Made by a program: the position numbers and the translations under genes
The notes under the pieces: generated by a model
Database searches by the model: none
Told to the model about the DNA's origin: nothing
The model's input: the letters and a program-made list of their open reading frames with translations, nothing else
Origin: Aquisphaera giovannonii
GTDB taxonomy: Bacteria; Planctomycetota; Planctomycetia; Isosphaerales; Isosphaeraceae
NCBI RefSeq assembly: GCF_008087625.1
Contig: NZ_CP042997.1
Coordinates: forward strand, 4,712,001 to 4,776,000
Reading direction: 5' to 3'
Length of the DNA stretch: 64,000 bases
In this document: piece by piece, positions 6,728 through 57,350 of the stretch
How the letters are laid out: each line of letters opens with the position of its first letter
Position numbering within the stretch: position 1 is the stretch's first letter

Positions 6728-7153
6728 TCACTCCTCCAGCGTCGCGTCCAGGGTGATCTCCGCCTTGAGGAGCTTGGACACCGGGCAGCCGGCCTTGGCC
6801 TTGCCGGTGAGCTCCTCGAACTTCGCCCGGTCGGCGCCGGGGATCTTCGCCTTGAGGGTCAGGTGGACGGCCGTGATGGCGAAGCCGTCGCCCTGCTTGT
6901 CCAGCGTGACGTCGGCCCGCGTCTCCATCCGCTCCGCGGTGAGGCCGGCCTCGCCCAGGATCAGGGACAGCGCCATGGTGAAGCAGCCGGCGTGCGCGGC
7001 GCCGATGAGCTCCTCCGGGTTGGTGCCGGGCTTGCCCTCGAACCGGGCGGCGAAGCCGTAGGGATAGTTCTTCAGGGCGCCGCTGCGAGTGGAGATGGCC
7101 CCCACGCCGTCCTTCAACCCGCCCTGCCACACCGCCGATCCGTAGGTCTTCAT
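6728..7153 (-). CDS. osmC: OsmC-family peroxiredoxin
   Basis: The protein has 141 residues, the normal length for OsmC/Ohr, and starts MKTYGSAVWQGGLKDGVG. OsmC proteins are cytoplasmic thiol peroxidases that reduce organic hydroperoxides with a pair of cysteines. Both are visible: Cys57 in HAGCFTMAL and Cys123 in AGCPVSKLL. The NPEELIGAAHAGC context favours the OsmC branch over Ohr. A good GGAGGA ribosome site lies just upstream of the ATG. It converges on the kinase gene, with 61 bases between stops. The next gene on the same strand is the efflux pump, whose stop lies 80 bases upstream of this start, but there is no sign of a shared function. Confidence 0.93.
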   Translation of the reverse strand: MKTYGSAVWQGGLKDGVGAISTRSGALKNYPYGFAARFEGKPGTNPEELIGAAHAGCFTMALSLILGEAGLTAERMETRADVTLDKQGDGFAITAVHLTLKAKIPGADRAKFEELTGKAKAGCPVSKLLKAEITLDATLEE

Positions 7154-7232
7154 GGGGTCCTCCTCGATGGGGATGCATGCCGGCCCCTCGGCCGGGCCGA
7201 GGGCCGATGATACGACACGCCGAACGCCGCGA

Positions 7233-10200
7233 TCAGGCGTCCGCCCGGCGATCCTCCGGCGAGCGGTCCTGCGCGGCCGGCTCGCGGCCGGGGTGGCCGT
7301 CGCCGTTCCCGTCGGAGGCGACCGGGTGCGAGCCGTTCCCGTCGGGCGCCGGCTGCGGGTGCCCGCCGGAGGGGTGGACGTGGTGCGGGCGGCCGGCGTG
7401 GCCGGGGAGCTGGGCCTCGTCCTCGTCCTCCTCGTCGGCGCCTCGGAGGCGGGCCAGGTAGTCGCCGATCCGCTCGCCCAGGACGTAATAGATCGGGATC
7501 ACGAAGCGGCCCAGCACCGTGCTCACGGCGATGCCGAAGGCGATCACGATGCCCAGCGAGTTCCGGCTGCCGGCGCCGGCGCCGGTCGCCCTGGCCATCG
7601 GCAGCACGCCCATGACGAACGCCAGCGAGGTCATGAGGATCGGCCGGAGCCGCTCGCGCGAGGCCGCCTTGGCGGACTCGATGATGCTCATCCCGCGCTT
7701 CTCGCGCATCTCGACGGCGAACTCGACGATGAGGATCGCGTTCTTGGTCTCCAGGCCGATGAGCATGACCAGGCCGATCTGCCCGAAGACGTCCAGCGGC
7801 ATGTCGAACAGCCACAGGCCCAGGATGGCCCCGAACATGGCCAGCGGGACCGTCAGGACGATGACCGTCGGCCGGATCCAGCTCTCGTACAGCGCGGCCA
7901 TGAACAGGAAGACGCAGACGACCGACAGGGCGAAGATGTACGTCGCCTGGTTGCCGGTCTTCAGCTCCTGGAAGGTCGTCCCGGTCCACTCGTAGTCGAA
8001 TCCCTCCGGGAGGACCTCGGCGGCGATCTGCTGCATCGCCTCGATGGCCTGGCCCGAGCTGAACCCGGGCGCGGGCACGCCGTTGATCTTGGACGAGGCG
8101 AAGAGGTTGTAGTGGGGCACCTCGATCGGCCCGAGCTTGTAGCCGATCTCGCCCAGCGCGCTCAGGGGCACCTTCTCCCCCTTGCGGTTCAGCACGGTCA
8201 GCGCGGCGATGTCCTGCGGCTTGCGGCGGGCCTCGCCCTCCGCCTGCATGAGCACCTTCCAGACCTTGCCGAAGAGGTTGAAGTCGTTGATGTAGTACGC
8301 GCCCAGGTTCGTCTGGAGGGTGGCGAAGACGTCGGAGACCGGCACGTCGAGGCGGCGCGCCTTGACGCGGTCGAGGTCGAACTTGAGCTGCGGGACGCGG
8401 GCGGAGAAGCTGGTGAACGCCACGGCCAGCTCGGGCCGCTTGCGGGCGGCGGCCAGGACCTGGTCGGTGACCCGCTGGAGCGCCTCCACACCCTTGCCGG
8501 CGCGGTCCTCGATCATCACCTCGAAGCCGCCGGTCATGCTCAGGCCGCGGATCGGCGGCGGCTCGATGACCATCACGATCGCCTCGCGGACCGAGGCGAG
8601 CTTCTCCTGGAGCACCCTCGTCAGGGCCCCGGACCGCAGCTCCGGCGCCCGCCGCTCGCGCCACGGGATCAGGGGGAGGAAGATGATGCCGGAGTTGCTC
8701 TGGTTCGTGAGGCTGAGGATGTTCAGCCCCTCCAGCGTCACGACGTGCTCCACGCCGGGCAGCTCCTTGGCGATCTTCTCCACCCGCTTGATGATCCGGC
8801 TCGTCGCCTCGCGGCTCGTGCCGTCGGGCGCCTGGATGTTGACGATCAGGTAGCCCTGGTCCTCCGCCGGGGCGAACGACCTGGGGCGGGTGGCGACCAT
8901 CCAGCCCGTCAGGGCCAGCAGGCCGATCGACGGGATCACGATCGTCCACCAGTGGTGCGCCGTGAACTCCAGGACCGAGTCGTACGAGTCCTCCAGCCAC
9001 TTCATCAGGCGGTTGAACCAGCGGAACAGGAAGAACCGCGTCTCGCCGTGCTGGGCCTTCAGGAACAGCCGGGCCATCGCCGGGCTGAACGTGAGCGAGT
9101 TGAACGCCGAGAAGACGAACGAGAAGACGATCGTCATCGCGAACTGGTTGTACAGCTTCCCGGTCATCCCCGGGATGAACGCCACCGGCACGAAGACCGC
9201 CGCGAGGACCAGCGTGATCGTCACGATGGGCGCCGTGATCTCCGCCATGGCGGCGCGCGACGCGGCCAGCGGGCGGTAGCCGCGTCCCAGGTACTTCTCG
9301 ATGTTCTCCACGACGATGATGGCGTCGTCCACGACCAGGCCGATGGCCAGGATCAGGCCGCAGAGCGTCAGCGTGTTGAGCGAGAACCCGAAGGCCGCCA
9401 TGAGGGCGAACGTGGCCACCAGCGACGTCGGGATGGCCAGCATCGGGATGATCGTGGCCCGGAAGCCCTGGAGGAAGATGAAGACCACCACCATGACGAG
9501 GAGGAACGCCTCGACGAGCGTGTGCAGCACCTCGTCGATGTTCTCCTCGACGTACCGCGTGGTGTCGTACGCCGTGCGGTACTCCAGGCCCGGCGGGAAG
9601 CTCTTCGCCAGCCGGTCCATCTCCCTGCGGACGCTCTCCACGATCGTCAGGGCGTTGCCGTCGGCGTACTGGTAGACGAGGATCGAGCCGGCGGGCTGGC
9701 TGTCCAGGAAGCCCGCCGTCTCGTAGTTCTCCGAGGAGAGCTCCACGCGGGCGACGTCCCTCAGCCGGACGATCGAGCCCTCGTCCTTGCGGCGGACGAT
9801 GATCTCCTCGAACTCCGCCACCTTGGTGAGCCGGCCCTTGACCGTCAGCGGGAACTCGAACGCCTGGCCCTCCGGCACCGGCAGGGCGCCGATCTTGCCG
9901 GCGGCCGCCTGCACGTTCTCCTGCTGCACGGCCTGGATCACCTCCGTCGGCGCGATCCTCAGCTCGGCCATCTTGTTCGGGTCCAGCCAGATCCGCATCG
10001 CGTACTTGCGGCCGAAGACGGTCACGTCGCTCACGCCCGGGATCCGCTTCAGCGCGTCGGCGATGTAGATCTGGCCGTAGTTGTCCAGGAAGTTGGCGTC
10101 GTACCGGCCGTCCGGCGAGATCAGGTTGACGACGCAGACCATGTCCGTGGAGGTCTTCTTGATCGTCACCCCGTACTGCTTCACCTCCGGCGGGAGCTGC

Positions 10201-40173: not shown

Positions 40174-43100
40174 TCAGTAGAGGATCGTCCGCTCGGCGAC
40201 GCCCAGGAGGCCCGTCAGGAAGTCGCCGACGGAGCCGCCGGCCGACCAGTTCCACTGCTGGTAGAACGCGCCGAAGCTCTCGGTGACGGGGCTGCCGGTC
40301 GTGTCCATGTAGGTGATCGTGCCGTCGTGGCGGTCGTAGCCGGTCAGCACGACCCAGTGGAGGTCGTTGGGCAGGTGGCCGGCGGTGAAGGGGCCGAAGT
40401 CGCCGACGTCGTGGCTCTGGCCGGTGGGATTGATCAGGGCGATCACCGGCCGGCCCGTGGCCAGGATGTCCAGCACGTGGTCCAGCCCGCCGTCGCCGTA
40501 GTTCACGCTCACCCGGGACTCGAGCCGGGTGGACGGGCGGAACAGCCGGAGCGTATCGAGCAGGCTGGACGGCCGGGTGCCCATGTGGACCAGGGAGATC
40601 AGGTCGGTGTTGTGCTCGATGTAGCCGCGGACCTGCGGGTAGGTGACGTCGAAGCCGTAATACTGGAGGAACCTCGCCGCCGAGTTCGCGCCGCAGCTCC
40701 AGTCGTCGGTCTGCGCCTCGCCGCCGGGGACGCCGTGGATGGTGATCGTCTCCTGGACGCCCGTCGAGGGCGACCAGTAGAGGTCGCCGTTCTGGAAGTG
40801 GCTGATGCGGCCGCCCGTGGCATTCATCTCGTCGGAGGTCGGCAGGCCGAGGACGCCCGCCGGCCCGCCCATCGCGGCATAGCGGTCGCCGATCGCCCCG
40901 TAGACGACGTGGGCGCCCGTGGCATTCGACCAGTAGATCACGCCGTGCTGGAAGGTATTCATCCGGGCCCCGGCGACGCCCGGCACGTCCATCTCATCGG
41001 AGGTGGGCAGGCCGATCCCGCTCGCCGGGCCGCCCTGGCGGAGGTACTCGTCGCGGATCACGCCGTAGACGACGTGTGCGCCCGTGGCATTCGACCAGTA
41101 GATCGTCCCGCGCTGGAAGGTGTTCATCCGCCCGCCCGCGACGCCCGGGATGTCCACCTCGTCGGTGATCGGCAGGCCGATCCCGCTCGCCGGGCCGGCC
41201 TGATGGAGATATTCGTCGCGGATCACGCCGTAGACGACGTGGGCGCCCGTGGCATTCGACCAGTAGATCGTCCCGCCCTGGAAGGTATTCATGCGGGCCC
41301 CGGCGACCCCCGGCACGTCGACCTCGTCGGTGATCGGCAGCCCGATGCCGCTGGTCGGGCCGCCCTGATAGAGATACTCCCCGCCGATCGAGCCGTAGAC
41401 CGCACGGGCGCCGGTCGCATTCGAGTAGTAGGCCGCCCCGTGCTGGAAGGTGTTCATCCGGCCGCCCGCGACGCCCGGGATGTTGACCTCATCGGAGGTC
41501 GGCAGGCCGAGCGGGCCGGCCGGCCCGCCCTGGGCGACGTAATCCACCCCGATCGAGCCGTAGACGACGTGGGCCCCCGTCGCGTTGGACCAGTAGATCG
41601 TCCCGCCCTGGAACGTCGCCCGGTCGGCGCCGGTGACGCCCGCGATGCTCGCCTCGTCGGCGGTCGGCAGGCCGAGGATCGCCTTGACGTTGGTCCCGTT
41701 GACGTCGCCCTCGTTGCCCGTCGCCAGGTACTCGTTGGCGACCGCGGTCGTGACGCTGTGCGCCCCCGTGGCGGCCGACCAGAGGATCGTCCCGTGCTGG
41801 AAGTTCTGCATCCGGCCCCCGCCGATGCCGGCAACCGCCACCTCCTCGCCCGTCGGCAGGCCGAGGCTCCCCGCGGGCCCGCCCAGCGCCTTGTACTTCG
41901 CCGCGATGCTCTCCGACACCGCATGCGCCCCGGTGCCGCTGGCGTAATAGATGGTCCCGCCCTGGAACGTCGCCATGCGCGCCCCGCTGACCCCGGCCAC
42001 GCTCGCCTCGTCGGCGGTCGGCAGGCCCAGCACCCTCTGGAGGTTCTTGCCGGACGCGTCGGTCTCCTTCGCCGTCGCCAGGTACTCGTTGGCGATGGCC
42101 GTCGAGACGCTGTGTGCCCCGGCGGTCGCGGACCAGAAGACCGTCCCGTTCTTGAAGGCCTGGGAGCGGGCCCCGCTCACCCCGGACACGTTCGCCTCGT
42201 CGGCGGTCGGCAGGCCGAGGCTCCCCGACGGCCCGCCCAGGGCCGCGAATTTCGCGGCGATGCTCCCCGCGATGGCGTGCGCACCGGCCGAGCTCGACCA
42301 GTAGATCGTCCCGTGCTGGAACGACTCCATCCGCCCGCCGCTCACCCCGGCGATGGCCACCTCCTCGCCCGTCGGCAGGCCGAGGCTCCCCGCGGGCCCG
42401 CCCAGCGCCTTGTACTTCGCGGCGATGCTCTCCGACACCGCATGCGCCCCGGTGCCGCTGGCGTAATAGATGGTCCCGCCCTGGAACGTCGCCATGCGCG
42501 CCCCGCTGACCCCGGCCACGCTCGCCTCGTCGGCCGTCGGCAGGCCCAGGACCGTCTGGAGGTTCTTGCCGGACGCGTCGGTCTCCTTCGCCGTCGCCAG
42601 GTATTCGTTGGCGATGGCCGTCGAGACGCTATGCGCCCCGGTCGCGCCCGACCAGAGGATCGTCCCGTGCTGGAACGACTCCATCCGCCCGCCGCTCACC
42701 CCGGCGATGGCCACCTCCTCGCCCGTCGGCAGGCCCAGGCCCCCGGCGGGCCCGCCCAGCGCCTTGTACTTCGCCGCGATGCTCTCCGACACCGCGTGGG
42801 CCCCGGTGCCGCTGGAGGAGTAGATCACCCCGCCCTGGAACGTCGCCATGCGCCCCCCGCTCACCCCGGACACGTTCGCCTCGTCGGCGGTCGGCAGGCC
42901 CAGCACCCTCTGGAGGTTCTTGCCGGACGCGTCGGTCTCCTTCGCGGTCGCCGCGTACTCGGTCGCGACCGCCTTCGAGACGGCGTGGGCGCCGGTGGAG
43001 GTCGACCAGTAGATCGCCCCGCCCTGGAAGGTCTCGTACTTGCCGCCGGGGACGCTGGTGGCGATCTCGGCCGAGGTCGACTTGCCGAGGAAGCTGCTCG

Positions 43101-43263
43101 CCCCGCCGAGGGCCGCGTACTTGGCCGCGATCGGGTCGATGCCGCTCAGGAGCTGCCGCGGTTCCATGGCCTCCATCCCGAGGACGGCCTTGCGCCCGCG
43201 GCGGAGCTCCCGGTGATTCGGACGGATCGAGGCGGAGACGCGGAGATTCGAGTTCTTCGACAT
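40174..43263 (-). CDS. Secreted LGFP-repeat protein with C39-like peptidase domain
   Basis: The protein has 1029 residues. Near the N-terminus is the planctomycete export-associated motif MEAMEPRQLLSG (about 30-41) without a classical signal peptide. Residues about 45-820 form 14 LGFP repeats of roughly 50 residues (AAKYKALGGPAG, LGLPTADEANVSG, MATFQGGxIYWS, TGAHAV), a module known from cell-wall-bound proteins. The C-terminus is a papain-like C39-type peptidase: Cys857 in DDWSCGANSAARFLQYYGFD, His969 in LHWVVLTGYD and an Asp in TYMDTTGSP. The likely role is surface-anchored peptidase. Repeats in the middle are almost identical at the DNA level (about 41930-42160 and 42460-42690), a sign of recent internal duplication. 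Confidence 0.88.
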   Translation of the reverse strand: MSKNSNLRVSASIRPNHRELRRGRKAVLGMEAMEPRQLLSGIDPIAAKYAALGGASSFLGKSTSAEIATSVPGGKYETFQGGAIYWSTSTGAHAVSKAVATEYAATAKETDASGKNLQRVLGLPTADEANVSGVSGGRMATFQGGVIYSSSGTGAHAVSESIAAKYKALGGPAGGLGLPTGEEVAIAGVSGGRMESFQHGTILWSGATGAHSVSTAIANEYLATAKETDASGKNLQTVLGLPTADEASVAGVSGARMATFQGGTIYYASGTGAHAVSESIAAKYKALGGPAGSLGLPTGEEVAIAGVSGGRMESFQHGTIYWSSSAGAHAIAGSIAAKFAALGGPSGSLGLPTADEANVSGVSGARSQAFKNGTVFWSATAGAHSVSTAIANEYLATAKETDASGKNLQRVLGLPTADEASVAGVSGARMATFQGGTIYYASGTGAHAVSESIAAKYKALGGPAGSLGLPTGEEVAVAGIGGGRMQNFQHGTILWSAATGAHSVTTAVANEYLATGNEGDVNGTNVKAILGLPTADEASIAGVTGADRATFQGGTIYWSNATGAHVVYGSIGVDYVAQGGPAGPLGLPTSDEVNIPGVAGGRMNTFQHGAAYYSNATGARAVYGSIGGEYLYQGGPTSGIGLPITDEVDVPGVAGARMNTFQGGTIYWSNATGAHVVYGVIRDEYLHQAGPASGIGLPITDEVDIPGVAGGRMNTFQRGTIYWSNATGAHVVYGVIRDEYLRQGGPASGIGLPTSDEMDVPGVAGARMNTFQHGVIYWSNATGAHVVYGAIGDRYAAMGGPAGVLGLPTSDEMNATGGRISHFQNGDLYWSPSTGVQETITIHGVPGGEAQTDDWSCGANSAARFLQYYGFDVTYPQVRGYIEHNTDLISLVHMGTRPSSLLDTLRLFRPSTRLESRVSVNYGDGGLDHVLDILATGRPVIALINPTGQSHDVGDFGPFTAGHLPNDLHWVVLTGYDRHDGTITYMDTTGSPVTESFGAFYQQWNWSAGGSVGDFLTGLLGVAERTILY

Positions 43264-43746: not shown

Positions 43747-45987
43747 TCACCGGACGACCTGCGAGAACCCGCCCCCGCCCCCCGCGCCGGCCGGCGACCC
43801 TGGGACAACGCTCACGGATACCTGGACGGGGCCCCGATAGGGGGCCCGGAGCGTGAGCGTCAAGCGGTGCGTGGCCGCGACATACCGGACGCTCCCGATG
43901 ATGAGCTTCCGGGTGAAGGCGAGCCTCCCGCGCCGGAGGACCCCGCCCAGGACGCGATAGAGCGACGGGTTCGCGACCGGGGCGGGGGCCATCGCCTCGC
44001 TGAAGGCGATCGTCACCGCGCCCACCTTCCCGTCCCGTCGCGTCACGCCGACCACGCCGAGGACCGAGGGCGGGGCCGCCGCGACGCCCCCTCCTGCCTG
44101 CGCCTCGCCCCCGCCGCCGGCCGGGCCGACGCCCCCGCCGGCCTTCGCCGGCGTCACGGCGACCGTGTTCGAGTCCGGCGACACCCACGCGGGCGTCGCG
44201 GACGAGGGGCCGAGGATGGCCGCGTGCACCCGGAACCAGTACGTGGCCCCGGAGGCCGCGAGGCCCGGGACCGCGTAGGCCGTCGTCCCCGGGCCCAGCG
44301 TGGCGATCGTCGCGAAGCTCGACCCGTCGAGGCTCTCCTCGACGAAGGACGTGGCCGCGCCGCCGGTCGGGTCGTCCCAGGACAGGGTCAGCGCCCCGGT
44401 GCCGTCCGGGAGCAGGGACGAGGTCAGCGCGATCGGCGGGGCCTGCGGCATCGCCACGGCGACGGCCGCCGTGCCGCCGCGGGCCCCGTTGACGACGACC
44501 CGATAGGAGGCCAGGCTCCCCGGCGGGACGGCCGGATCCACGAAGCTCGCGGTCCCGGCGGCGACCGCCGCGATCGGCTGGAAGGCCGAGCCGTCGAGCG
44601 ACCGCTCGACCAGCGAGCCCAGCAGGTAGGACGGCCGGACGCGCCGCGGGCTCGCGTCGGCCCAGCTCAGCCGCACCGTCGAAGGCCCCTGCGCGGCGGC
44701 CGACAGGTCCGCGGGCGCCGGGTATTGCAGGCTCACGACGACCTGCACCGGGGCGGAGGCGCTGACCTGCTGCCCGTAATACGCCGCGACGCGGTATTCG
44801 GCCGTCCCGGCCGCCCCGAGGCCGGCGCCGGCGTCCGCGTAGCTCGTCGCCCCCGGGTCCAGCGTCGCGACCACCGAGAACGGGCCGCCGTCGAGCGAGC
44901 GCTCGATCCGGGTGCCCGCGAGCCCTCCGCTGGGGTCGGACCACGAGAGGGTGACCGGCCCGGGATACTCGAACGCGGCCGCGACGCCCGCCGGGGGCGC
45001 CGGGATCGTGGCCGCGCTCACGATCCGTGAGGCCGGCGACGTGCCCTGGCCGATCTGGGAGGTCACGCGATATTGGTAGACCGTCCCCGCCGCCGCCGTG
45101 CCGTCCTTGAAGCGGGTGCTGCCGGCCGGCAGCGTCGCGATCGGCCGGAAGGCCTGGCCCGGGGCCGCCCGCACCACCGTGTACGTCGCCCGCCCGCCGT
45201 TCGTGTCGAACCAGCTCACGTCGATCTCGCCCGGCGACGCGCCCGCGGCGGCCACGAGCCGGGGGACCTGCGCCTGGCCCGCGGGCGCGGGGTAGAGCCC
45301 GTCGATGGTGGAGACGTCCTCGGCGCTCAGCGTCGTCGCCTGGTCGATGAGCGAGCCGTCCCGCCTCGTGATCGCCGGCCGCCCGCCCACCGAGAACGCG
45401 CCGCTGTCGTACTGCATGATCGAGGAAACATCGTACGGCCCGACGTCGAAGATGGGGTTGCTGACCTTCGCGAACGCGTCGTCGTGCGCGGGATCGATGG
45501 CCTGCCAGTTCACGATCACGTGGTCGTCCCGGTCGTACCGCTGCTGCTCGTGGAGCAGCCCCAGCACGTGCCCCATCTCGTGCAGCATCAAGGGCACGCC
45601 GGTGGAGGCGTCGAAGGCCGAGCTCACGTCCACGTAATCGACGGCCTGGTTGTAGCCCACGCTCGCGGTCTCGACGAGCGAATACCCCTCCGACCGGAAG
45701 AGGACGTAGCTCGCCTGGCCGGCCCTGGGCACCCACTGGACGGTCGTCATGTCGTGGTATTCGTCGATCGCCTCGGCGATCACCGCGGCCTGCGCCGGCG
45801 CAATCGAGGGGTCGATCGCGTAGGGGATCTGATTCGTGGGCCAGATGTTCGAGACGACGCACGAGGGCAGCAGCCGCGATTCCAGCGGCTCCCACGAGGG
45901 CGCGACGGCCCGGCGGCTCGCGGCGCGCGGCCTCCCGCCGGCTCCGGTGCGGGCCTTCCGTCCGCTCGGGTCGGGTGCTCCGGGCAT
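43747..45987 (-). CDS. Secreted astacin-type metalloprotease with FN3-like modules
   Basis: The start is uncertain; ATG 45987 (MPGAPDPSGRKARTG) has GGGAG upstream, while 46065 and 46092 are in frame but lack a ribosome site. From 45987 it has 746 residues. The N-terminus carries WEPLESRLLPS, the planctomycete LExRxLLS-type motif. The catalytic domain holds HEMGHVLGLLHEQQRYDRD (His136, Glu137, His140, His146), the full astacin (M12A) zinc signature, and SSIMQYDSGAFS as the Met-turn. Four or five FN3-like beta modules follow (EIDVSWFDTNGGRATYTVVR, PVTLSWSDPSGGLAGTRIER). A C-terminal Ig-like domain (VTIAFSEAMAPAPVANPSLY) ends the protein. It is probably an extracellular or surface protease with substrate-binding modules. 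Confidence 0.87.
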   Translation of the reverse strand: MPGAPDPSGRKARTGAGGRPRAASRRAVAPSWEPLESRLLPSCVVSNIWPTNQIPYAIDPSIAPAQAAVIAEAIDEYHDMTTVQWVPRAGQASYVLFRSEGYSLVETASVGYNQAVDYVDVSSAFDASTGVPLMLHEMGHVLGLLHEQQRYDRDDHVIVNWQAIDPAHDDAFAKVSNPIFDVGPYDVSSIMQYDSGAFSVGGRPAITRRDGSLIDQATTLSAEDVSTIDGLYPAPAGQAQVPRLVAAAGASPGEIDVSWFDTNGGRATYTVVRAAPGQAFRPIATLPAGSTRFKDGTAAAGTVYQYRVTSQIGQGTSPASRIVSAATIPAPPAGVAAAFEYPGPVTLSWSDPSGGLAGTRIERSLDGGPFSVVATLDPGATSYADAGAGLGAAGTAEYRVAAYYGQQVSASAPVQVVVSLQYPAPADLSAAAQGPSTVRLSWADASPRRVRPSYLLGSLVERSLDGSAFQPIAAVAAGTASFVDPAVPPGSLASYRVVVNGARGGTAAVAVAMPQAPPIALTSSLLPDGTGALTLSWDDPTGGAATSFVEESLDGSSFATIATLGPGTTAYAVPGLAASGATYWFRVHAAILGPSSATPAWVSPDSNTVAVTPAKAGGGVGPAGGGGEAQAGGGVAAAPPSVLGVVGVTRRDGKVGAVTIAFSEAMAPAPVANPSLYRVLGGVLRRGRLAFTRKLIIGSVRYVAATHRLTLTLRAPYRGPVQVSVSVVPGSPAGAGGGGGFSQVVR

Positions 45988-46396
45988 CGGCACGCTCCCG
46001 CCCCGCCACGCGCCGTTCCCGGCCGTGGGCGGGGATCGTCGTCGAGACTCGGCCTCGGCCGCCATGCCGGGATCGCAACTCCGAGGGCCCATCAGTGGGC
46101 CGCGGCCACTCCGCTCGCGGAGAAGCCTAGTACCTGAATATCCCCGAGGCGCGGGACAATCCGCCAGCCTCTGGACGCGAGGTCGCATCGGCGCCGGGTC
46201 GTGGCCAAACGGCTCCCGACCTCTCCTCGCGGCGGGCTGACCGTCAACCACACCTCGAGCCGAGCGGTCCTTCCTGTCCCCTCCCCCGCGGTGGGGGAGG
46301 GTCAGGGGGAGCGGGCGGCCGCCTCTGACATGAAAAGTGTAGTAGGGTGCGTCTTGACGCACCGGATCGCCGCGTCATGCAGACGATGCGGCGATA

Positions 46397-48203: not shown

Positions 48204-48620
48204 GGCTTGGCGGCTCCCCTGCAAGAAAAACACGGGCCTCCACCGGCCCTCGCCCTCGCGCGAGATAGCCTACCCGACCCCGCCGCCGAAGTTCAGGGGC
48301 CAGCGGACTCCGGACTCTCCATCTCCTTCGGCCCTCCAGGTACGCCAACCATCGTTCGCCGTTGAGGACGCTCCTTTCGGGCTCATGTGCCCCTTTGGCT
48401 TTCCTGGAAAGAGAACTGACACCGACGGGCCCCTGACACCGACGGGCCCCCTAGGACACGGATGATCAGTAGTAGAACAAAAGGCACAAGTCTTCGTATA
48501 GTCAGTAATAGCGCCCGCGGTAAGTTGCCAGTCGTCCAGTTCGACTTGTTCTATTTGCCGGTTCCTGGCAATCTGCCCGCGCCGCCCCCCAGGGTTCGCG
48601 AGTAATCAAACGGATGTTGC
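48204..48620. other. A/T-richer gap at the left edge of the defence island
   Basis: Two perfect tandem copies of CTGACACCGACGGGCCC lie at 48416-48449. From about 48455 to 48560 the base composition becomes clearly A/T-richer than the neighbourhood (for example GTAGAACAAAAGGCACAAG), which fits both a promoter zone for the rightward ATPase gene and a boundary of acquired DNA. No open frame of interest is present. Confidence 0.55.
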
Positions 48621-49610
48621 ATGGCCAGGTCCGACCTGCTGATAAATCTGGTGAAAGCAGGGACTCAGGGAGACCAATCTCTCTTCCGGAGGACCGTGGA
48701 GGCCGTCATCGCTGAAGAACGGGGCAAGAACCATACTGTGCTCGCCGATCGGCTCGCCGACGCCGCTTCGTCGGTCCGGCAGAACGGGCACTCGAAACAC
48801 CAGCCGACCCTCTTCCCAATTTCGAACGGCATCGCGAACGACCTGTACTTCGAGACAACACCCCAACGATCGCTGGAAGACCTGGTGCTCCCCAAGGCGA
48901 CCCGGGACGTCTGCCTCGAGCTGATCGAGGAGCAGCATCGTCACTCCCTCCTCCGCTCATACAGCCTCGAGCCCCGGAACCGGATCCTCCTGGCAGGTGA
49001 CCCGGGAAACGGCAAAACGTCCCTGGCCGAAGCAATCGCCCACGCACTGATGGTTCCCCTTGTGGTAGTGCGTTATGATGGCTTGATCGCGAGCTACCTG
49101 GGGGAAACGGCTTCTCGACTCAACAAGCTGTTCGAATACGTCCGGACGAGGAGCTGCGTCCTCTTCTTCGACGAATTCGACACGATCGGTAAGGAGCGGG
49201 GCGACGTTCACGAGACTGGCGAGATCAAGCGAGTCGTCAGCTCACTCCTCCTCCAGATCGACGCCCTCCCTTCGCACGTTGTCGTCGTGACGGCCACGAA
49301 TCACCCCGAACTCCTCGATCGCGCGGTCTGGCGTCGGTTCCAACTCCGTTTGGAGCTTCCGCGGCCGACGATTCGGGACGTCGAAGCGTACTTCGCGAGC
49401 GTCGAGGCCCGGTTGAAATTTTCCCTCGAGATCTCACCCAAGGTATTGGCCGATAGACTTCAGGGGGCGAGCTATTCCGAACTGGAAGACTTCGTGTCCG
49501 ACATCTCGCGCCGATACGTTCTGTCGCTGCCCGACGCCAACATCAAGAAGATAGTGCAGCAACGGCTCGTCCAGTGGCAGGACCGCTTCGACGCCAAACG
49601 CACGAGCTGA
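48621..49610 (+). CDS. ietA: AAA+ ATPase of an IetAS-type defence pair
   Basis: The protein has 329 residues. It has a helical N-terminus (about 1-85) and one AAA+ module: Walker A AGDPGNGKTSLAEAI with Lys132, Walker B VLFFDEFD with Asp184 and Glu185, sensor-1 VVVVTATNHPELLD, and an arginine-finger-like RRF in AVWRRFQLRLELP. The C-terminal helical lid is present. It is 25 bases upstream of a subtilisin-like protease. This ATPase-plus-S8 pairing is the known IetAS arrangement, first described as a plasmid toxin-antitoxin pair and later as a phage-defence system. In that model the ATPase restrains or regulates the protease. Assignment rests on gene order, domain content and sizes. Confidence 0.85.
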   Translation: MARSDLLINLVKAGTQGDQSLFRRTVEAVIAEERGKNHTVLADRLADAASSVRQNGHSKHQPTLFPISNGIANDLYFETTPQRSLEDLVLPKATRDVCLELIEEQHRHSLLRSYSLEPRNRILLAGDPGNGKTSLAEAIAHALMVPLVVVRYDGLIASYLGETASRLNKLFEYVRTRSCVLFFDEFDTIGKERGDVHETGEIKRVVSSLLLQIDALPSHVVVVTATNHPELLDRAVWRRFQLRLELPRPTIRDVEAYFASVEARLKFSLEISPKVLADRLQGASYSELEDFVSDISRRYVLSLPDANIKKIVQQRLVQWQDRFDAKRTS

Positions 49611-49635
49611 CCCGTAGTGCCATGACGAGACCACA

Positions 49636-52212
49636 ATGGCTGTGCATCCGTTGTTGTTCTTCCCGCCCCCCGCGGTCCAGCCTCCTGCGAAGCGTGGCGG
49701 TGGCGGCGGGAAGATAAAGACGCCCACCCCCGAAGAGCAGCGTGCCCGCCTGGATGCGAAGTTCAGGCACATCGCCAAGAGTTTCGCGGGTGCCCAGACC
49801 ACCTCCCAGGGGCTCGAGCCCGAGCAGGTGGTTGTCTTCGAAACGCTCGGCATCTCAGTCGATGGGCTCGCCAAGGCCGCCGCTGCGGTTCCTGGCCTCG
49901 AGTGGCTTTCGGAGATCGATCTCGAAGACGTCGCGCCCGGAGAAGGCTTCGAGGACGCAAAAGAGCCGGCCGCTGCCCTGAGTTGCCGACTCTACGCGCT
50001 GATGTCGAATCAGCAGGCGATCACCCAGCTCATAGGGCTCTGGGGAAACTGGCTGGCGAACCCGGGCGAGCGCGCGAAGAACAACTTCGGCCCATTCAAG
50101 ACGATCTTCATCCACTTGAAGGACATCCGTCGCTGGGGGGTGAAGGATCGGCTCGCGGAGACGCAGGTCGTCGAGTATTGGAAAGAGCGCCTCGAAGACG
50201 AGGACCCGAAGAAGAGCATCCGATTCGAGGTCGAACTCTGGTGTCGGGGCGAGGAGTCGAAGCGGAGGCGGGCTTATGACCATCTCAGGCGGCTCGTCAC
50301 CTCCGCCGGCGGCCAGTGCGTCACCGAGACGACGATCGCCGAAATCCTCTATCACGGCGTCCTGGTAGACCTCCCGCGCGAGAAGGTCCGCGATACCTTC
50401 GATTCGATCATGAGCGAGAGCTATTCGCAGCTGCTGCGGTGCGAAGACGTGATGCTCTTCCGGCCGCTCGGGCAGTCCAGCTTCCCGGCGCTAGAGATCG
50501 AAGACGGACGGGTCGAGCCGGCCGTGGCAGACTCCAGGCCGCTGCCGGCGGGCAAGCCCGTGGTCGCGCTCCTCGACGGCCTGCCCCTGGAGCACCACGA
50601 CCTGCTCGAGGGACGCCTGGTCATCGACGACGAGAACGACCACGCGAGCCGATACCAGGCGCGACAGCAGCAGCACGGCACCTCGATGGCGTCCCTCATC
50701 GCGCATGGGGATCTCGGGGCCGACGGCCCACCGCTCGAAACGCCGATCTACGTCCGCCCGATCCTGGTGCCATTCGAGGACTTCAGCAAGAACGTCGTCG
50801 AGCGGACGCCCGACGATCGGCTGCTCGTGGACATCATCCACGAAGCCGTCGTCCGGATTAAGGGGACGGGCGATCGCAAGGGAGAGGCGCCGACGGTCAA
50901 GGTCATCAACCTTTCCTTCGGCAACACGTGGCAGCCATTCGACCGCCAGATGAGCCCGCTGGCGAAGCTCCTCGATTGGCTGTCCTGGGAGTACAACGTC
51001 CTGTTCCTCGTCAGCGCCGGCAACCAATCCCAGACGATCGACCTCGACGCGGAGAATGACGAACTCAACGGCATGACCGAGGAGGAGTTCCGGGCAAAGG
51101 CGCTCGAGGCCATCCGCCAGGATCAACTCAAGCGCCGGCCGTTCTCCCCGGCCGAGGCGATGAACGTGCTGACCGTGGGCGCGACGCACGCCGACCATTC
51201 GTCGTGGGATCAGGTCGGGAACCGGATCGACTTGCTCAAGGGGGCGAGGCTCCCGAGCCCGCTCAGCACGGTGGCGAACGGCTTCAAGCGTTCGGTGAAG
51301 CCGGACATCTACTTCCCGGGCGGGAGGCAGCTTTATCAGAAGGATTGGAGGGGGCCGAGCTTCAAGGTCGCTCATTCTTCGCTCCCGCCCGGTCTCCGCG
51401 TCGCGGCACCCGGGGCCAGGGCGATGGAACTCGGCCGGACGACTCACAGCCGAGGGACGAGCAACGCGACCGCGCTGGCGAGTCGGACGGCCGGCCTCAT
51501 CCATTCGAACCTCGAGAAGCTCCGTTCGACGCCGGGAGGCGATCTCCTGAGCGACGAATACACAGCGGTCATCCTCAAAGCCCTGCTCGTGCACGGCGCA
51601 TCCTGGGGAGAAGCGGGCGACATTATCGAGAATGTGCTCGGTGGCGGCCTGACTAAGTGGCAGGACAAGCTGCGTCTCAAGAGTCGATTCCTCGGCTACG
51701 GGGAAGTCGACCCGGAGAGGGCATTGTTCTCGACGGATCAGCGGGTCGCGATGCTCGGCTGGCAATCCCTGACCTGCGGGAGCGCGCACGTTTTCCGCGT
51801 ACCCCTCCCGCCCTCGTTGAGCGGCAAGAAGGTGAAGCGCCGGCTCACCATTTCGCTCGCCTGGTTCTCGCCGATAAATCCCCATCACAAGGACTATCGG
51901 CGGGCGTCGCTCTGGTTCAGTTCCAACAAGGACGTGCTCGCGCTGGACAAGAAGGACCTCGACTACGACAGCGCGAAGCGAGGGACTGTCCAGCACCAGA
52001 TCTTCGAGGGCGACACGGCGCGCGCGTTCAGCGACGGCGACGCGATCGAGATCAAGGTGAGCTGCGCGGAGGATGCCGGGAGCTGCTTGGAGAAGATCCC
52101 CTACGCCCTGGCGGCCACGCTCGAGATCGCGGAGCCCATCGACCTGAAAATATTCCGCGAGGTCGAGGCCCGCATCCGCATGAAGGTCGGCATCAACCCT
52201 ACCGGCACCTGA
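49636..52212 (+). CDS. ietS: Subtilisin-like (S8) protease of an IetAS-type defence pair
   Basis: The protein has 858 residues with no signal peptide, so it is probably cytoplasmic, which is unusual for subtilases but normal for IetS. The catalytic triad is visible: Asp314 in VVALLDGLPLEHHDLL, His347 in QQHGTSMASLIAHG and Ser609 in RGTSNATALASRTAG. The oxyanion Asn is in VLFLVSAGNQS. About 310 residues precede the protease domain and show no known domain; this region could sense the trigger or bind the ATPase. The C-terminal 200 residues are beta-rich (RRLTISLAWFSPI). It follows the ATPase gene at 25 bases, so the two are co-expressed. Confidence 0.87.
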   Translation: MAVHPLLFFPPPAVQPPAKRGGGGGKIKTPTPEEQRARLDAKFRHIAKSFAGAQTTSQGLEPEQVVVFETLGISVDGLAKAAAAVPGLEWLSEIDLEDVAPGEGFEDAKEPAAALSCRLYALMSNQQAITQLIGLWGNWLANPGERAKNNFGPFKTIFIHLKDIRRWGVKDRLAETQVVEYWKERLEDEDPKKSIRFEVELWCRGEESKRRRAYDHLRRLVTSAGGQCVTETTIAEILYHGVLVDLPREKVRDTFDSIMSESYSQLLRCEDVMLFRPLGQSSFPALEIEDGRVEPAVADSRPLPAGKPVVALLDGLPLEHHDLLEGRLVIDDENDHASRYQARQQQHGTSMASLIAHGDLGADGPPLETPIYVRPILVPFEDFSKNVVERTPDDRLLVDIIHEAVVRIKGTGDRKGEAPTVKVINLSFGNTWQPFDRQMSPLAKLLDWLSWEYNVLFLVSAGNQSQTIDLDAENDELNGMTEEEFRAKALEAIRQDQLKRRPFSPAEAMNVLTVGATHADHSSWDQVGNRIDLLKGARLPSPLSTVANGFKRSVKPDIYFPGGRQLYQKDWRGPSFKVAHSSLPPGLRVAAPGARAMELGRTTHSRGTSNATALASRTAGLIHSNLEKLRSTPGGDLLSDEYTAVILKALLVHGASWGEAGDIIENVLGGGLTKWQDKLRLKSRFLGYGEVDPERALFSTDQRVAMLGWQSLTCGSAHVFRVPLPPSLSGKKVKRRLTISLAWFSPINPHHKDYRRASLWFSSNKDVLALDKKDLDYDSAKRGTVQHQIFEGDTARAFSDGDAIEIKVSCAEDAGSCLEKIPYALAATLEIAEPIDLKIFREVEARIRMKVGINPTGT

Positions 52213-52232
52213 GACCACCCGAGGCGGCACCA

Positions 52233-52745
52233 ATGCTCGCCACGATCATCCTCGATCGCTTCCGACAAGACGAAATCAACGACGTCGCGCGGGCGATGGA
52301 CAAATTCTGCCAGCCTGGCGACACGCACCTCTTCGCGAGCTCGCTCGTCTACTGCTTCTCCGATCCCGTGACGCACGAGATCCTCTACATCGGACTCACG
52401 ACGAACATCGGCCTCCGGTTCCGCCAACACACCGGGATCATCGAATGCGACCCGGAATGCTGCAAGCTGGACGTGCCAACGAGACGTGCCAACGGGGTCA
52501 TTCTGATTCTCCCCGGCGAGTTGGGTGATCTGGGCAGAAAGCTCGGTAGCGACCATAGGATATTCCGTAACGCGCTGGGAACCTGGCGAACTCAGGTAGG
52601 ATCAACATGTGAGGGTCTCGGTGGTATCGGTCGCCTGCCGGTGCATGTCCTCAGGCCCGCTCAAGCCCGCTCAAGCCCGTGGGTGTGGGGAAAGGCTCCA
52701 AGAACCGATCCAGTCATCCCGACCGTCGGGCGACGAGGCTGGTGA
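52233..52745 (+). CDS. GIY-YIG-like protein next to ietAS, possibly degenerate
   Basis: The frame from ATG 52233 gives 170 residues. Residues about 36-70 show the GIY-YIG pattern: ASSLVYCFSDP, then EILYIGLTTNIGLRFRQHTG with Tyr, Gly, Arg and His in place. The remainder (from about 85) is weakly constrained, and a 13-base tandem duplication (GACGTGCCAACGA) lies at the point where the match fades, near 52470-52496. The classical catalytic Glu cannot be located. It may be a compact nuclease, a truncated one, or a decayed remnant. It begins 20 bases after the ietS stop and on the same strand, so it could be a third member of the operon. Confidence 0.55.
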   Translation: MLATIILDRFRQDEINDVARAMDKFCQPGDTHLFASSLVYCFSDPVTHEILYIGLTTNIGLRFRQHTGIIECDPECCKLDVPTRRANGVILILPGELGDLGRKLGSDHRIFRNALGTWRTQVGSTCEGLGGIGRLPVHVLRPAQARSSPWVWGKAPRTDPVIPTVGRRGW

Positions 52746-52845
52746 GCTAATCCGCGGGATCTCTTTGCTACAATGAAGACAGTCGCGATCCCCCTCGAGA
52801 TCCGGGGGGCATCGAGCTTGTCGCATGGTCAGGAGGCCGGCCGTA

Positions 52846-53169
52846 ATGACATCTTCCGCGAGCCTCAGGGGCATCGTCCGCGGCAGGACGATCGAGCTCG
52901 AGAGTGAATCGGGGCTGCCCGACGGCCAGGTGGTCTCGGTCACGTTGACGTCCGTCGGCGCGTCGTCCCTCGCCGGCCTCTTCGCAACGCCCCCACACAA
53001 GCTCGACCCTCGGCTCGCCGAGGCCCTGTCCAAGGTCAAGGACCTTCCCCCGGGCGAGGGGCTTCGCCGCAGCGCCGGGGCCTGGGCGGAGGATGCCGCG
53101 GAGCTGGACGAGTATCTCGAGGAGAATCGACGACGACGGAAGATCGGCCGACCCGAGATCGAGCCTTGA
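52846..53169 (+). CDS. VapB-like antitoxin
   Basis: The protein has 107 residues from ATG 52846, nine bases after AGGAGG; an ATG at 52825 is less likely. The N-terminus SLRGIVRGRTIELESESGLP resembles the short beta-strand (AbrB/DUF104-like) DNA-binding antitoxins, with VVSVTLT. The C-terminal tail is acidic and basic (WAEDAAELDEYLEENRRRRK), typical of the toxin-binding part. Its stop overlaps the TTG start of the PIN-domain gene. The pairing with a PIN toxin makes the antitoxin call likely although the family is loose. Confidence 0.72.
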   Translation: MTSSASLRGIVRGRTIELESESGLPDGQVVSVTLTSVGASSLAGLFATPPHKLDPRLAEALSKVKDLPPGEGLRRSAGAWAEDAAELDEYLEENRRRRKIGRPEIEP

Positions 53170-53519
53170 AATTCCTCCTGGACACCGACATTTGTTCGGC
53201 CAACCTCAAGGGCCATCACGCGGTTTGCAGCCGGTGCGCGCAGTACAGGGGGCGGCTTTACGCCTCGACCGTCACCGTGGGAGAGCTATTCACCTGGGCT
53301 CTCCGGAGCAAGGCGCCTCCGAACAGACTGGCCGACATCCTCGCCTTCCTCAGCGAGGTGACCGTCCTCGATCTCGACTGGGCGGTGGCATGGAAGTTCG
53401 CTGAAATTCGGGCTCTCTTATTCGACATGGGCTCTCCGCCCCCCGACATGGACCTGGTCAATGCAGCGACCGCCCTCGTCCACGGGCTGACGATGGTGAC
53501 TCACAACACCCAGGTGTAA
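53166..53519 (+). pseudogene. VapC-like PIN toxin, 3' end cut off by IS66 insertion
   Basis: The start is a TTG overlapping the antitoxin stop. The visible 117 residues contain the PIN acidic residues: Asp6 in FLLDTDIC, Glu40 in VTVGELF and Asp94/Asp96 in PPDMDLVNAATAL. The last normal residues are LTMVTHNTQ; the next codon runs into the insertion sequence at 53516 and stops at 53519. The missing end, YATVPGLDLTDWMKP, is found after the element at 55029-55077. Loss of about 15 C-terminal residues removes the last strand of the fold, so the toxin is probably inactive or weakened. The element looks fresh, so excision could restore the gene. Confidence 0.85.
53507..53515. repeat. IS66 target duplication, left copy
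   Basis: CACCCAGGT precedes the left end of the element and is repeated at 55020-55028. IS66 elements normally duplicate 8 bases, so one base of the nine may be coincidental. Confidence 0.85.
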
Positions 53520-55019
53520 CCGTTCACAGGTCGGGGCGGGGTTTTGAGAAACCGGGGTTCGCGCCGCCGGGAAAACTGGCAACATCTCATCCATGTCGCT
53601 GGAAATCACGGACGACCTGATTGCCCGTCAATCGCCTGAAGCGCAGGCGATCATCCGGCTCTTGTTGGCCAGGATCGCCGAGCAAGATCGTCGGATCGCC
53701 CGGTTGGAAGCCGAATTGGAGTCGCTGCGCAAGACGCCGCAGAACTCCTCGCTGCCCCCCAGCACTCAGCACCCGCATGCCAGGCCCGCGAGCCGCGAGG
53801 CGAAGTCGAGACGGAAAAGGGGCGGGCAGCCCGGGCATCGCAAGCATGAGCGCCCCCTGATTCGCACCGAGGACTGCCAGGCGGTCGTCACCCTCATGCC
53901 CGGGGGATGTCGCCGTTGTGGGACGAGGCTGTCGGGGGTCGATCCCGAGCCGTTGCGCCATCAAGTCTGGGAACTGCCCGAGATCAAGCCGGTCGTCACG
54001 GAGTATCAGCGGCATCGCCTGAGCTGCCCCCGCTGCGGGGAGAGCACGTGTGCCGAACTCCCCGCGGGCGTCCCTCGTGGCCAGTCGGGGCCGCGGCTGA
54101 TCGCCTTCGTCGCCACGCTCATGGCCCACTTCCGGCAGAGCAAGCGCCGCACGTCGCTATTCGTGACCTCGGTCCTGAACATCCCCTGCTGCCCGTCGTT
54201 GACGGTCAAGCACCAGCGGATCGCGACCCGGGCGCTGCAGCCCGCGTACGATCGACTCGTGGCCGCCCTGCCATCGCAGCCCCATCTCAACGGGGACGAA
54301 TCGCCGACCAAGGAAGGCACGACGAAGGCATGGCTCTGGACGTTCGTGGCCGGGACCTTCACGGTGTTCGCCCTCCGCGGCAGTCGCGCCGCCACGGCGA
54401 TCGGCGAGCTGCTGGGCGAGGCGTTCGCCGGCGTGATGACCTGCGATCGAGCGAAGATGTACTGGCGATGTGGCCGGCTTCAGTGGTGCTGGGCCCATCT
54501 GAAGCGGGACTTCCAGGCGCTGGTGGATCATGCCGATCCGCAGGTGCGGCGGTTGGGCCACGACCTGATGCGGCCGACCCGAGAACTGTTTCGGCAGTGG
54601 TCGCGGTGCCGTGACGGGACGATCAGCCGCGGCGAATTGGGACGGGCCCTGGCGCCGGTCCGCCATCGAGTGGAGGCCTTGCTGCTGCGCGGCGCGTTCA
54701 GCGGCAATCCGCGCCTGACGGGCATGTCCCGGGAGCTCTACGATCATCGCGACTGGCTCTGGTCATTCCTGGACGTGGATGGGGTCGAACCGACGAACAA
54801 TGCCGGCGAGCGCTCATTGCGCCATGCGGTGATCTGGCGAAAGCTCTCGTTCGGGACGCAGAGCCCGCACGGGAGCCGGTTCGTGGAGACGCTGTTGAGC
54901 GTCATCGAGACCTGCCGTCAGCAGGACCGCAACGTCCTCGACTTCGTGACTCACGCCGTCACCGCCCACTTTCGCGGTGAAACATCCCCTTCGCTCCTCC
55001 CCGGGCCGTGAACGATTAC
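53516..55019 (+). mobile_element. IS66-family insertion sequence, single transposase gene
   Basis: The element is 1504 bases. The left end is GTAACCGTTCACAG and the right end is GGCCGTGAACGATTAC, inverted with one mismatch in the outer 12. It is flanked by CACCCAGGT repeats. It carries only the main transposase gene and lacks the small tnpA/tnpB genes, as in the ISBst12-type subgroup. It splits the VapC gene. Confidence 0.9.
53593..55011 (+). CDS. IS66-family transposase
   Basis: The protein has 472 residues. The N-terminal part (about 20-55, IAEQDRRIARLEAELESLRK) is the coiled coil of IS66 transposases, followed by QNSSLPPSTQHPHARPASRE and a basic KSRRKRGGQPGH stretch. A zinc-ribbon-like CRRCGTRL and LSCPRCGEST follow. 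The catalytic core contains HLNGDESPTKEG (first Asp), MTCDRAKMYW (second Asp) and VDGVEPTNNAGERSLRHAVI (Glu), which carry the DDE triad of the family. The C-terminus FVETLLSVIETCRQQDRNVL is also typical. The frame is intact, so the element may be active. Confidence 0.95.
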   Translation: MSLEITDDLIARQSPEAQAIIRLLLARIAEQDRRIARLEAELESLRKTPQNSSLPPSTQHPHARPASREAKSRRKRGGQPGHRKHERPLIRTEDCQAVVTLMPGGCRRCGTRLSGVDPEPLRHQVWELPEIKPVVTEYQRHRLSCPRCGESTCAELPAGVPRGQSGPRLIAFVATLMAHFRQSKRRTSLFVTSVLNIPCCPSLTVKHQRIATRALQPAYDRLVAALPSQPHLNGDESPTKEGTTKAWLWTFVAGTFTVFALRGSRAATAIGELLGEAFAGVMTCDRAKMYWRCGRLQWCWAHLKRDFQALVDHADPQVRRLGHDLMRPTRELFRQWSRCRDGTISRGELGRALAPVRHRVEALLLRGAFSGNPRLTGMSRELYDHRDWLWSFLDVDGVEPTNNAGERSLRHAVIWRKLSFGTQSPHGSRFVETLLSVIETCRQQDRNVLDFVTHAVTAHFRGETSPSLLPGP

Positions 55020-55387: not shown

Positions 55388-56677
55388 TCAGATCTCGACG
55401 CTCACCGGGCCGGAGACCGAACCGTCCTCGTCGACCACCCGGATCCGCAGCTTGCCCCGCGGTAGCATCAGGGCTGGGACCTCCTGCCCCGGACGGATCG
55501 GGACCTGGTCGACCGGGATCGCCGCGTCGGGCTCGCCTTCGTAATGGGCCTGGGCCAGGCGCAGGCCCTTGCCCTTCAGGAGGGCCGGGGGGATCGGGTA
55601 TGGGATGCGCCCCAGGTCGCGTGCCATCCAGTCGGGCCGGCCGCGCTCCAGCTTCACCCGGGGGAAGAAGACCGTGGCGTCGAACCCCTCGTGCTCCGAC
55701 CACGGCCTCCCGTCTCGCCGCACGAAGACCGTCGGGCGCGCCACCAGCCGCCTCGCCGCGGCGTAGCGGTACAGGGGGGTCTCGTGCTCGGGGCGGATCG
55801 CCTCGACGTGCCGGGACGCGTGGACCGTGAACGGGTCCAGCCCGCTGATCTCCTTGAGGTGCAGGGCCATCATCTTGTCGGGCCCGAGCGACCCCTTCAG
55901 GGCGTGGCCGCGCCCGACCCAGACGAAGACCCTGGCGTGCGGATCCTCGTCGAGGATGCGCCCCTTGATGTTCCGGGCCTGGCCCGATTCGCGGGCCGAC
56001 TGGCGCCCCGCCGCCGGGACATCGGGCCCGGGGATCGACTCGTACGGGACGAGCCGGTAGCCGAGCCGGATCGCCTCGCGCACCCCCGACGCGAAGACGG
56101 GGTCCGCGGTGTACGTGCCGGTCTTGCTCGTGGGGTAGCCGGCCTCCTGGGTGGCGGCGATCTCGCGATGGAAGGTCTCGGCCGCGAAGTATCGGAAGCC
56201 CTTCCCGCGGAGGCCGCGCAGGAGCGGCTCCATCAGGACGCGCGTCTGGGGGAGGTGGTGCTCCTCCCCCACGATCACGACCCGGCGGTCGCCGACGGCG
56301 TCGAGGATCGCCCCGGCGGCCTCCGCGGGGCGGCACGCGTCGATGGGGGACTTCTCGGGCGGCGGCCCCAGCTTCAGGTCGCCGTAGATGAGGTCGAGCC
56401 CACGGGGCCCGGCCGTCGGATCGCCGAGGAACTCCTCGAACATGAGCTCGATCTCGGGGTACATCGGCTTCCACATCGGCGACTCGAGGTAGCGCGGCCG
56501 CAGCCGCTTCAGCTCCACGTAGCGGGCCAGGGGGTTGCCCGCCTCGACCTGCTCCTTCTTCACCCGGAATGGGTCGGGGAGGTCGCGATCGGGCCTGGGC
56601 TCCTGCCCGGCCGCGGAGAGGCCGAGGGCGAGGGCGAGGGCGATCATCGCCGCGAGGGGGCGAGGCGGGATGGACAC
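55388..56677 (-). CDS. Secreted ChaN/erythromycin-esterase-like protein
   Basis: A GTG at 56677 with GGAGG seven bases upstream gives 429 residues; the longer ATG frame to 56965 is not convincing. A signal peptide is seen (PPRPLAAMIALALALGLSAA). The core resembles the ChaN/EreA-like fold: VVIVGEEHHLPQTRVLMEPL, FRYFAAETFHREIAAT, YRLVPYESIPGPD and RVFVWVGRGHALKG. Proteins of this group bind haem or carry a TIKI/EreA-type protease or esterase site with Glu and His residues. Which function applies here is not clear. The C-terminus has a short beta-rich tail (LRIRVVDEDGSVSGPVSVE). Confidence 0.65.
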   Translation of the reverse strand: MSIPPRPLAAMIALALALGLSAAGQEPRPDRDLPDPFRVKKEQVEAGNPLARYVELKRLRPRYLESPMWKPMYPEIELMFEEFLGDPTAGPRGLDLIYGDLKLGPPPEKSPIDACRPAEAAGAILDAVGDRRVVIVGEEHHLPQTRVLMEPLLRGLRGKGFRYFAAETFHREIAATQEAGYPTSKTGTYTADPVFASGVREAIRLGYRLVPYESIPGPDVPAAGRQSARESGQARNIKGRILDEDPHARVFVWVGRGHALKGSLGPDKMMALHLKEISGLDPFTVHASRHVEAIRPEHETPLYRYAAARRLVARPTVFVRRDGRPWSEHEGFDATVFFPRVKLERGRPDWMARDLGRIPYPIPPALLKGKGLRLAQAHYEGEPDAAIPVDQVPIRPGQEVPALMLPRGKLRIRVVDEDGSVSGPVSVEI

Positions 56678-57350
56678 GGGGACCTCCACTCCGTGCTCGG
56701 GGCGGTTCTCCGGGGCCCGGATCGCCACGCCCCCAATCCTTCGATTTTGTCGGAAAAGCTGAATCTGAGGGTTATACGACAATCGGGGGCTGCCGGGGAC
56801 TGCCGGTGGAGGTTCTCTTTTCCCGCCCGGCTGGACACCCCGGGTTGACCGAGCGCACCATCCTCGATGTCGCCGGCGTCGGGCCACGACTCGTCGTCCG
56901 CCGGGGTGATCCGCCCCGCCGCGGCCCGACTCGCCGCCCTCTCGCCCGCTCGTCGCCGTCGCCATGCCTCCATCGCCCGCCGGCCGCGCGCAAAGCCCCC
57001 CATCCGAGCGAGGCGCCGAGGCCCGTGATCGGGCATCCCACCGAGGCCGCGGGCAACTGCTCGACGGGGTTCATCGCGTCGCCGGAGGACTCGCGGCCAG
57101 TCAGGGAGTCTCGACCCACGGCCGGTGCCCGGCCACCTCGATCGACGCGAGACCACTCCTCATCGTCCGCAGGCGTCCGGCGCCGTACGCGATGTTCCGA
57201 TCGGTCCTCATGCGCCAACCCGGCGACGATGCGGGCCGGGAGCCGAGGGACCAGGCGAGCGGCACAAGACTTGCCAAGAGGGGTTAAACGCCTAAATAAG
57301 TCGTAGAGGGCAAGGCCTCATGGCCACCGCCCGAGGGAGGGGAGTGGCCG
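56678..57350. other. Intergenic region, nothing recognised
   Basis: This 673-base stretch holds frames that are compositional (Arg/Pro/Gly-rich, no family). It includes the upstream regions of the ChaN-like gene (leftward) and the small zinc-ribbon-like gene (rightward). A/T-richer bases occur at about 56735-56780 and 57280-57315. Confidence 0.45.

Follow-up and report, generated by a model that had tools for sequence, protein, structure and literature searches.

Does the pair of adjacent genes at positions 48621 to 52212 of the DNA studied here encode an IetAS module, that is, a plasmid toxin-antitoxin system also known for phage defense, as its initial annotation had proposed? The window, meaning the whole stretch analyzed, comprises 64,000 nucleotides of contig NZ_CP042997.1 of Aquisphaera giovannonii. 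The first gene, ietA (48621 to 49610, + strand), begins with an ATG and encodes a classical (Cdc48/FtsH-like) AAA+ ATPase of 329 residues, the putative antitoxin. The second, ietS (49636 to 52212, + strand, ATG start), encodes an 858-residue subtilase, the putative toxin. In substance the proposal is correct: the pair is an ordinary IetAS member, and it probably works as a toxin-antitoxin or defense module. IetAS is annotated in many defense surveys and, according to an excerpt of a 2023 survey, its mechanism is still to be described (PMC9958689).

Family assignment and inheritance of the pair

The adjacency of an AAA+ ATPase gene and a subtilisin gene was borne out, with 25 bases (49611 to 49635) between the two open reading frames (ORFs). 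The ietA product is an AAA ATPase, with 105.6 bits for Pfam PF00004 (cut-off 21.2), and the ietS product a Peptidase_S8, with 69.8 bits for PF00082 (cut-off 21.8). The Walker A (residues 126 to 133) and Walker B (180 to 185) motifs of IetA are invariant in the IetA alignment, and the nearest solved sequences are p97/NSF-type ATPases. The protease carries the full triad ascribed to it: all 78 aligned IetS proteins share Asp314, His347 and Ser609 (codons at 50575, 50674 and 51460, + strand), and all 78 also have the oxyanion Asn463. This alignment contains the window IetS (P0002) and 77 of 79 intact relatives, two being left out. The cytoplasmic location attributed to the protease is consistent with the lack of a strongly hydrophobic segment, the maximum 19-residue Kyte-Doolittle mean being 1.35, as judged from a hydropathy scan.

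Defense profiles for IetA and IetS, which the initial annotation had put forward as its check, were run with PADLOC, and both proteins match near full length. The IetA model PDLC04232 scores 502 bits over residues 1 to 326 of 329 (profile positions 1 to 323 of 330), and the IetS model PDLC04233 scores 999.9 bits over residues 1 to 853 of 858.

Genomes were scanned with the IetA alignment, and the best 80 of 254 confirmed loci were used. IetS sequence lies directly after IetA in 79 of these 80 genome loci, 76 of them scoring above 60 bits and three scoring 28 to 51 bits; L067 is the sole locus of the 80 without downstream IetS sequence. Because 79 of 80 loci found through IetA have IetS directly downstream, the pairing is far beyond chance. 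Spacing was measured in 79 intact pairs drawn from 112 genome and viral loci, with start codons set by a fixed rule. It ranges from -95 to +29 bases with a median of -1 and 42 overlapping pairs, and the 25 bases of the window fall within this range. The identities of IetA and of IetS are correlated (r 0.845 over the 73 of 80 pairs kept after 90% dereplication), the best of 1000 shuffles reaching 0.149. The nearest intact pair shares 67% identity in IetA and 54% in IetS. In an IetA tree of 126 rows, built by a quick method, phyla are intermixed, and the window IetA falls in a group (support 86) with Planctomycetota loci L036 to L038 and one row each from Acidobacteriota and viruses. Judged from these sequences, the two genes are passed on together in many phyla.

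The A. giovannonii genome (10.5 Mb, 3 contigs) holds one copy of the pair. Of three genomes of the genus, including this one, a second matches only weakly and in part (26% identity) and the third not at all; at the level of the phylum a match at E≤1e-30 was found in 11 of 392 genomes. At E≤1e-5, 106 plasmid records match. The gene ietA is directly upstream of ietS in nine of the ten other Planctomycetota loci, the contig of the tenth beginning inside ietS. In three of these ten loci a frame break or an in-frame stop interrupts ietS, which may reflect decay or assembly error.

Domain architecture of IetS

The AlphaFold model of whole IetS has a mean predicted local distance difference test (pLDDT) value of 92.2 and a predicted template modeling (pTM) score of 0.94. 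The catalytic subtilase domain spans residues 304 to 698 (50545 to 51729, + strand), and subtilisin structures match at a Z of about 23 over residues 294 to 708. It is followed by a C-terminal β domain (residues 703 to 831; 51742 to 52128, + strand) like that of the KP-43 and SubHal subtilases. Over residues 304 to 829 of the model, KP-43 (1wmd) aligns with a VIA-align Z of 25.8 over 386 residues and a Foldseek E of 5.9e-15, and SubHal (5fax) with a Z of 25.7 over 387 residues and an E of 2.6e-14. ProN-Tk-SP is the best whole-model Foldseek match (E 1e-18, 676 columns) but was not relied upon, since it is not among the 50 VIA-align matches listed. A sequence search of the PDB returned no IetS structure, the best match being the subtilase SubHal at E 0.018.

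The N-terminal region of about 310 residues had been described as having no known domain and as perhaps the sensor. Pfam indeed finds no domain there, but the region folds confidently and includes a ferredoxin-like domain. Residues 1 to 305 modeled alone, from an input of 69 sequences that left out 9 of the 78 alignment rows, reach a pLDDT of 88.3. Residues 1 to 191 (49636 to 50208, + strand) form a long helix and an α/β region without assigned fold. They precede a β-α-β-β-α-β domain of ferredoxin-like topology (residues 192 to 278; 50209 to 50469, + strand) at the position of a subtilisin propeptide. A variable, poorly ordered linker (residues 281 to 300; 50476 to 50535, + strand) then connects the N-terminal and protease domains; it is the least conserved stretch of IetS (column conservation 0.19), and residues 286 to 296 have pLDDT values below 50 in the N-terminal model. 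The ferredoxin-like domain aligns with an engineered ferredoxin fold at a VIA-align Z of 7.2, and with POIA1 (1v5i_B), a propeptide-like subtilisin inhibitor, at a Z of 5.7 over 72 of 76 residues with a root-mean-square deviation of 4.1. It was assigned to a fold class only, because these Z scores are under 8.

The model suggests that this domain may be a built-in inhibitor of the propeptide type or a folding aid. What speaks for this reading is position: the domain directly precedes the catalytic domain, with the disordered linker, the least conserved part of IetS, between the two. Apart from the POIA1 inhibitor, no subtilisin propeptide is among the 50 VIA-align matches listed for the N-terminal model, which excludes nothing. 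Foldseek gave no match for this model at E≤0.001, a Pfam scan up to E 1 found no propeptide (Inhibitor_I9-like) domain in IetS, and a sequence search of solved structures with the N-terminal region found no relative (best E 0.52). The sensor idea found no support, the AlphaFold model showing folded domains, one of them ferredoxin-like, and our analyses give no sign of sensing. The domain map thereby recasts the N-terminus as a testable question, namely whether a ferredoxin-like domain inhibits the protease.

A separate alignment of 13 IetS proteins includes one from locus L023 (7986 to 10628), encoded beside an intact IetA, that has a Thr at the position of Ser609. This relative is perhaps an inactive protease because of the replacement.

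Genomic setting and lone IetA genes on viral contigs

The GC content is 60 to 68% over about 48.3 to 55 kb of the window, whereas it is 68 to 78% outside. At third codon positions (GC3) it is 0.72 to 0.85 for ietA, ietS, a GIY-YIG-like ORF, a PIN pair and an IS66 transposase, against 0.91 to 0.97 in five neighbors. Because both measures are low across this segment, the pair probably arrived in a short foreign segment together with the PIN-domain gene and the IS66 transposase, as composition suggests. The dip in GC and GC3 (48300 to 55000) is bounded by an esterase gene and an ORF at 55391 to 56965.

Within this segment, the GIY-YIG-like ORF (52233 to 52745, + strand, 170 residues) starts 20 bases after ietS and is outside the IetAS system. 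The PIN-domain ORF (53166 to 53519; PF01850, 37.5 bits) is overlapped by a small ORF (together 52825 to 53519) in an arrangement like that of a VapBC toxin-antitoxin pair, and the IS66 transposase gene follows (53593 to 55011). Upstream of ietA, two copies of a 17-base unit, CTGACACCGACGGGCCC, lie head-to-tail at 48416 to 48449. No sigma-70-type promoter was found in 48230 to 52900, where 0.5 would be expected. Farther away, an ORF at 40177 to 43263 (- strand) encodes a 1029-residue protein that combines a C39-like domain with 14 LGFP repeat stretches (698 bits); LGFP repeats are typical of Actinomycetota. The 871-residue product of another ORF, at 43750 to 46362 (- strand), has an astacin metallopeptidase domain (109.6 bits) and also matches fn3.

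With the window IetS as query, no match was found on viral contigs or in the phage collection; the IetA alignment as query did find viral copies. There are 32 viral loci with an IetA above 330 bits (L116 to L147), and IetS above 60 bits is present in 24 of them, one of which, L116, has only a piece of IetS. Two more, L122 and L136, are truncated at the contig edge. No IetS was found within about 7 kb of downstream sequence in L117, L120, L126, L132, L142 and L144. The lone IetA of these six loci lies near 7001 to 7970, except in L142 (5732 to 6502) and L144 (568 to 1347), and the six represent five placements in the IetA tree. A weaker set of IetA-like viral loci (L148 to L193) was excluded from this count, since in no fewer than four (L149, L150, L157 and L171) there is a distantly IetS-like stretch that is poorly scored or unscored by the profile used.

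In L120 the lone IetA gene lies amid exonuclease and endolysin genes, and in L126 it stands ahead of terminase genes. Terminase or portal genes are close by in L142 and L144, and in L132 a nearby gene encodes a methyltransferase that includes a ParB-like part; the three L117 neighbors scanned have no PHROG match. Each of the seven IetA-like proteins scanned has PHROG 3757 ("unknown function") as its top phage family. The proteins of L126, L132, L142 and L144 are without the first 58 to 69 profile residues, and those of L142 and L144 are also without part of the Walker B region. The lone viral IetA may be anti-toxin genes or leftovers of ietS loss, as far as sequence can tell. The altered ATPase motif of L142 and L144 weighs against an anti-toxin role there. 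Loss of ietS with IetA kept does occur, since L056, L072, L078 and L107 hold an IetA followed by a mere scrap of ietS, L072 ending near its contig end. A limited literature search found no report of a lone phage IetA. Phage-borne lone IetA genes could serve as natural tests of antitoxin function.

Mechanism, alternatives and known systems

In the mechanism that we propose, IetS would be a subtilase kept inactive inside the cell and IetA, the Cdc48/FtsH-like ATPase, would be its antitoxin. As long as working IetA is present, IetS would be restrained or remodeled. Once IetA is lost or disabled, either because the carrier element is lost or upon infection, IetS would cleave host proteins and growth would stop, which would stabilize the element and possibly abort phage infection. 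The assignment of the protease as toxin and the ATPase as antitoxin is carried over, by analogy, from the literature on relatives; we infer the direct binding of IetA to IetS, the trigger and the substrates. An extended form of this mechanism, in which IetS is a cytoplasmic zymogen with a ferredoxin-like inhibitor, IetA acts on the latent form, infection or loss of IetA frees the protease, and lone phage IetA acts as an anti-toxin in IetAS hosts, is speculative, and we consider it unlikely in its entirety.

Several observations weigh against the module and its proposed workings. Toxicity, neutralization and phage protection at this locus rest on other pairs, which are not near relatives. The NCBIfam "anti-phage" model IteA is the best NCBIfam match of IetA, yet scores 221.5 bits against a cut-off of 510; likewise IteS is the best NCBIfam match of IetS, yet reaches 73.8 bits against a cut-off of 900, over residues 161 to 657 only. 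Phage protection is therefore carried over from a distant subfamily. Many unrelated ferredoxin folds match residues 192 to 278 of IetS at Z 5.4 to 7.2, some of them scoring the same as POIA1 or higher. The case for a propeptide draws on a widespread fold, with Z under 8, and on the place of the domain in the chain. The pairs of a Rhizobium plasmid, a Shewanella plasmid and another planctomycete also fall below the IteA and IteS cut-offs. Since the window pair and the plasmid pairs miss them alike, profile scores place the window pair in the broad IetAS family, in a branch that it shares with rhizobial plasmids, and the IetAS name of PADLOC, by the same scores, spans at least two branches. Thus the family proposed by the initial annotation holds (profiles, gene order, triad) and a toxin-antitoxin role is known in other relatives, but the anti-phage equivalog models are missed.

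The pair might be a maintenance (addiction) module of plasmids or islands with no anti-phage role, as its relatives described as plasmid or island stabilizers, the 106 plasmid records and the missed NCBIfam anti-phage cut-offs would suggest. Here, however, it lies on a 10.37-Mb contig, the nine neighboring ORFs examined include no plasmid gene, and PADLOC classes the family as defense; we regard an exclusive maintenance role as possible but somewhat unlikely. It overlaps with the toxin-antitoxin or defense module, because maintenance and defense are not mutually exclusive. The same two proteins could instead form a quality-control or processing protease that acts in housekeeping or under stress, IetA unfolding substrates and feeding them to a regulated cytoplasmic IetS. 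An ATPase paired with a protease is the layout of ClpXP-type machines, and IetA is nearest to the unfoldases p97/NSF among solved structures and, after IteA, to PAN/FtsH models in the NCBIfam ranking. Such a role fits poorly with the patchy distribution among Planctomycetota (11 of 392 genomes), plasmid and viral carriage, the low-GC acquired segment, the broken ietS in three of ten other Planctomycetota loci and the behavior of relatives as toxins, and we hold it to be quite improbable. The GIY-YIG-like ORF was also considered as the effector of a three-gene system, being on the same strand 20 bases past ietS. Its first 70 to 87 residues match two plasmid-encoded GIY-YIG nucleases, about 257 and 317 residues long, but the remainder is unlike them; it scores 17.8 bits against a Pfam cut-off of 22.6, and it is probably truncated. 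Beyond these two plasmid records, neither of them beside IetAS, a search of 130 loci turned up no relative of the ORF, and this three-gene system is disfavored as highly improbable.

Among known systems, IetAS reportedly shielded E. coli from phage in work by Gao and colleagues (2020). The pTi IetAS and SgiAT pairs have the gene order and the AAA+ plus S8 architecture of the window pair. Excerpts of the SgiAT study describe this pair of SGI1 as a relative tested as a toxin-antitoxin system, with 50% and 36% identity to the pTiC58 IetA and IetS, respectively (PMC5006074). Identity between the window pair and L035, a pair on a Rhizobium plasmid, is 49% (IetA) and 31% (IetS), which is similar to the divergence reported between SgiAT and pTiC58. 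L035 matches the same PADLOC models, at 474 and 892 bits. The window pair differs in being chromosomal, of a planctomycete-type branch and separated by a 25-base gap, whereas the rhizobial genes overlap by 95 bases. The mycoplasma pair A132/T133 has the same two activities as the window pair, and in the portion of its report drawn on here these are shown to be toxin and antitoxin: losing the ATPase alone is lethal, whereas losing both or the protease is not (PMC8562856). The likeness is one of description, with a 757-residue protease and a 353-residue ATPase against 858 and 329 residues here (PMC8562856). Finally, the catalytic and C-terminal β domains of KP-43 and SubHal superpose on IetS, which, unlike these subtilases, is extended by about 300 residues at its N-terminus and is without a strongly hydrophobic segment.

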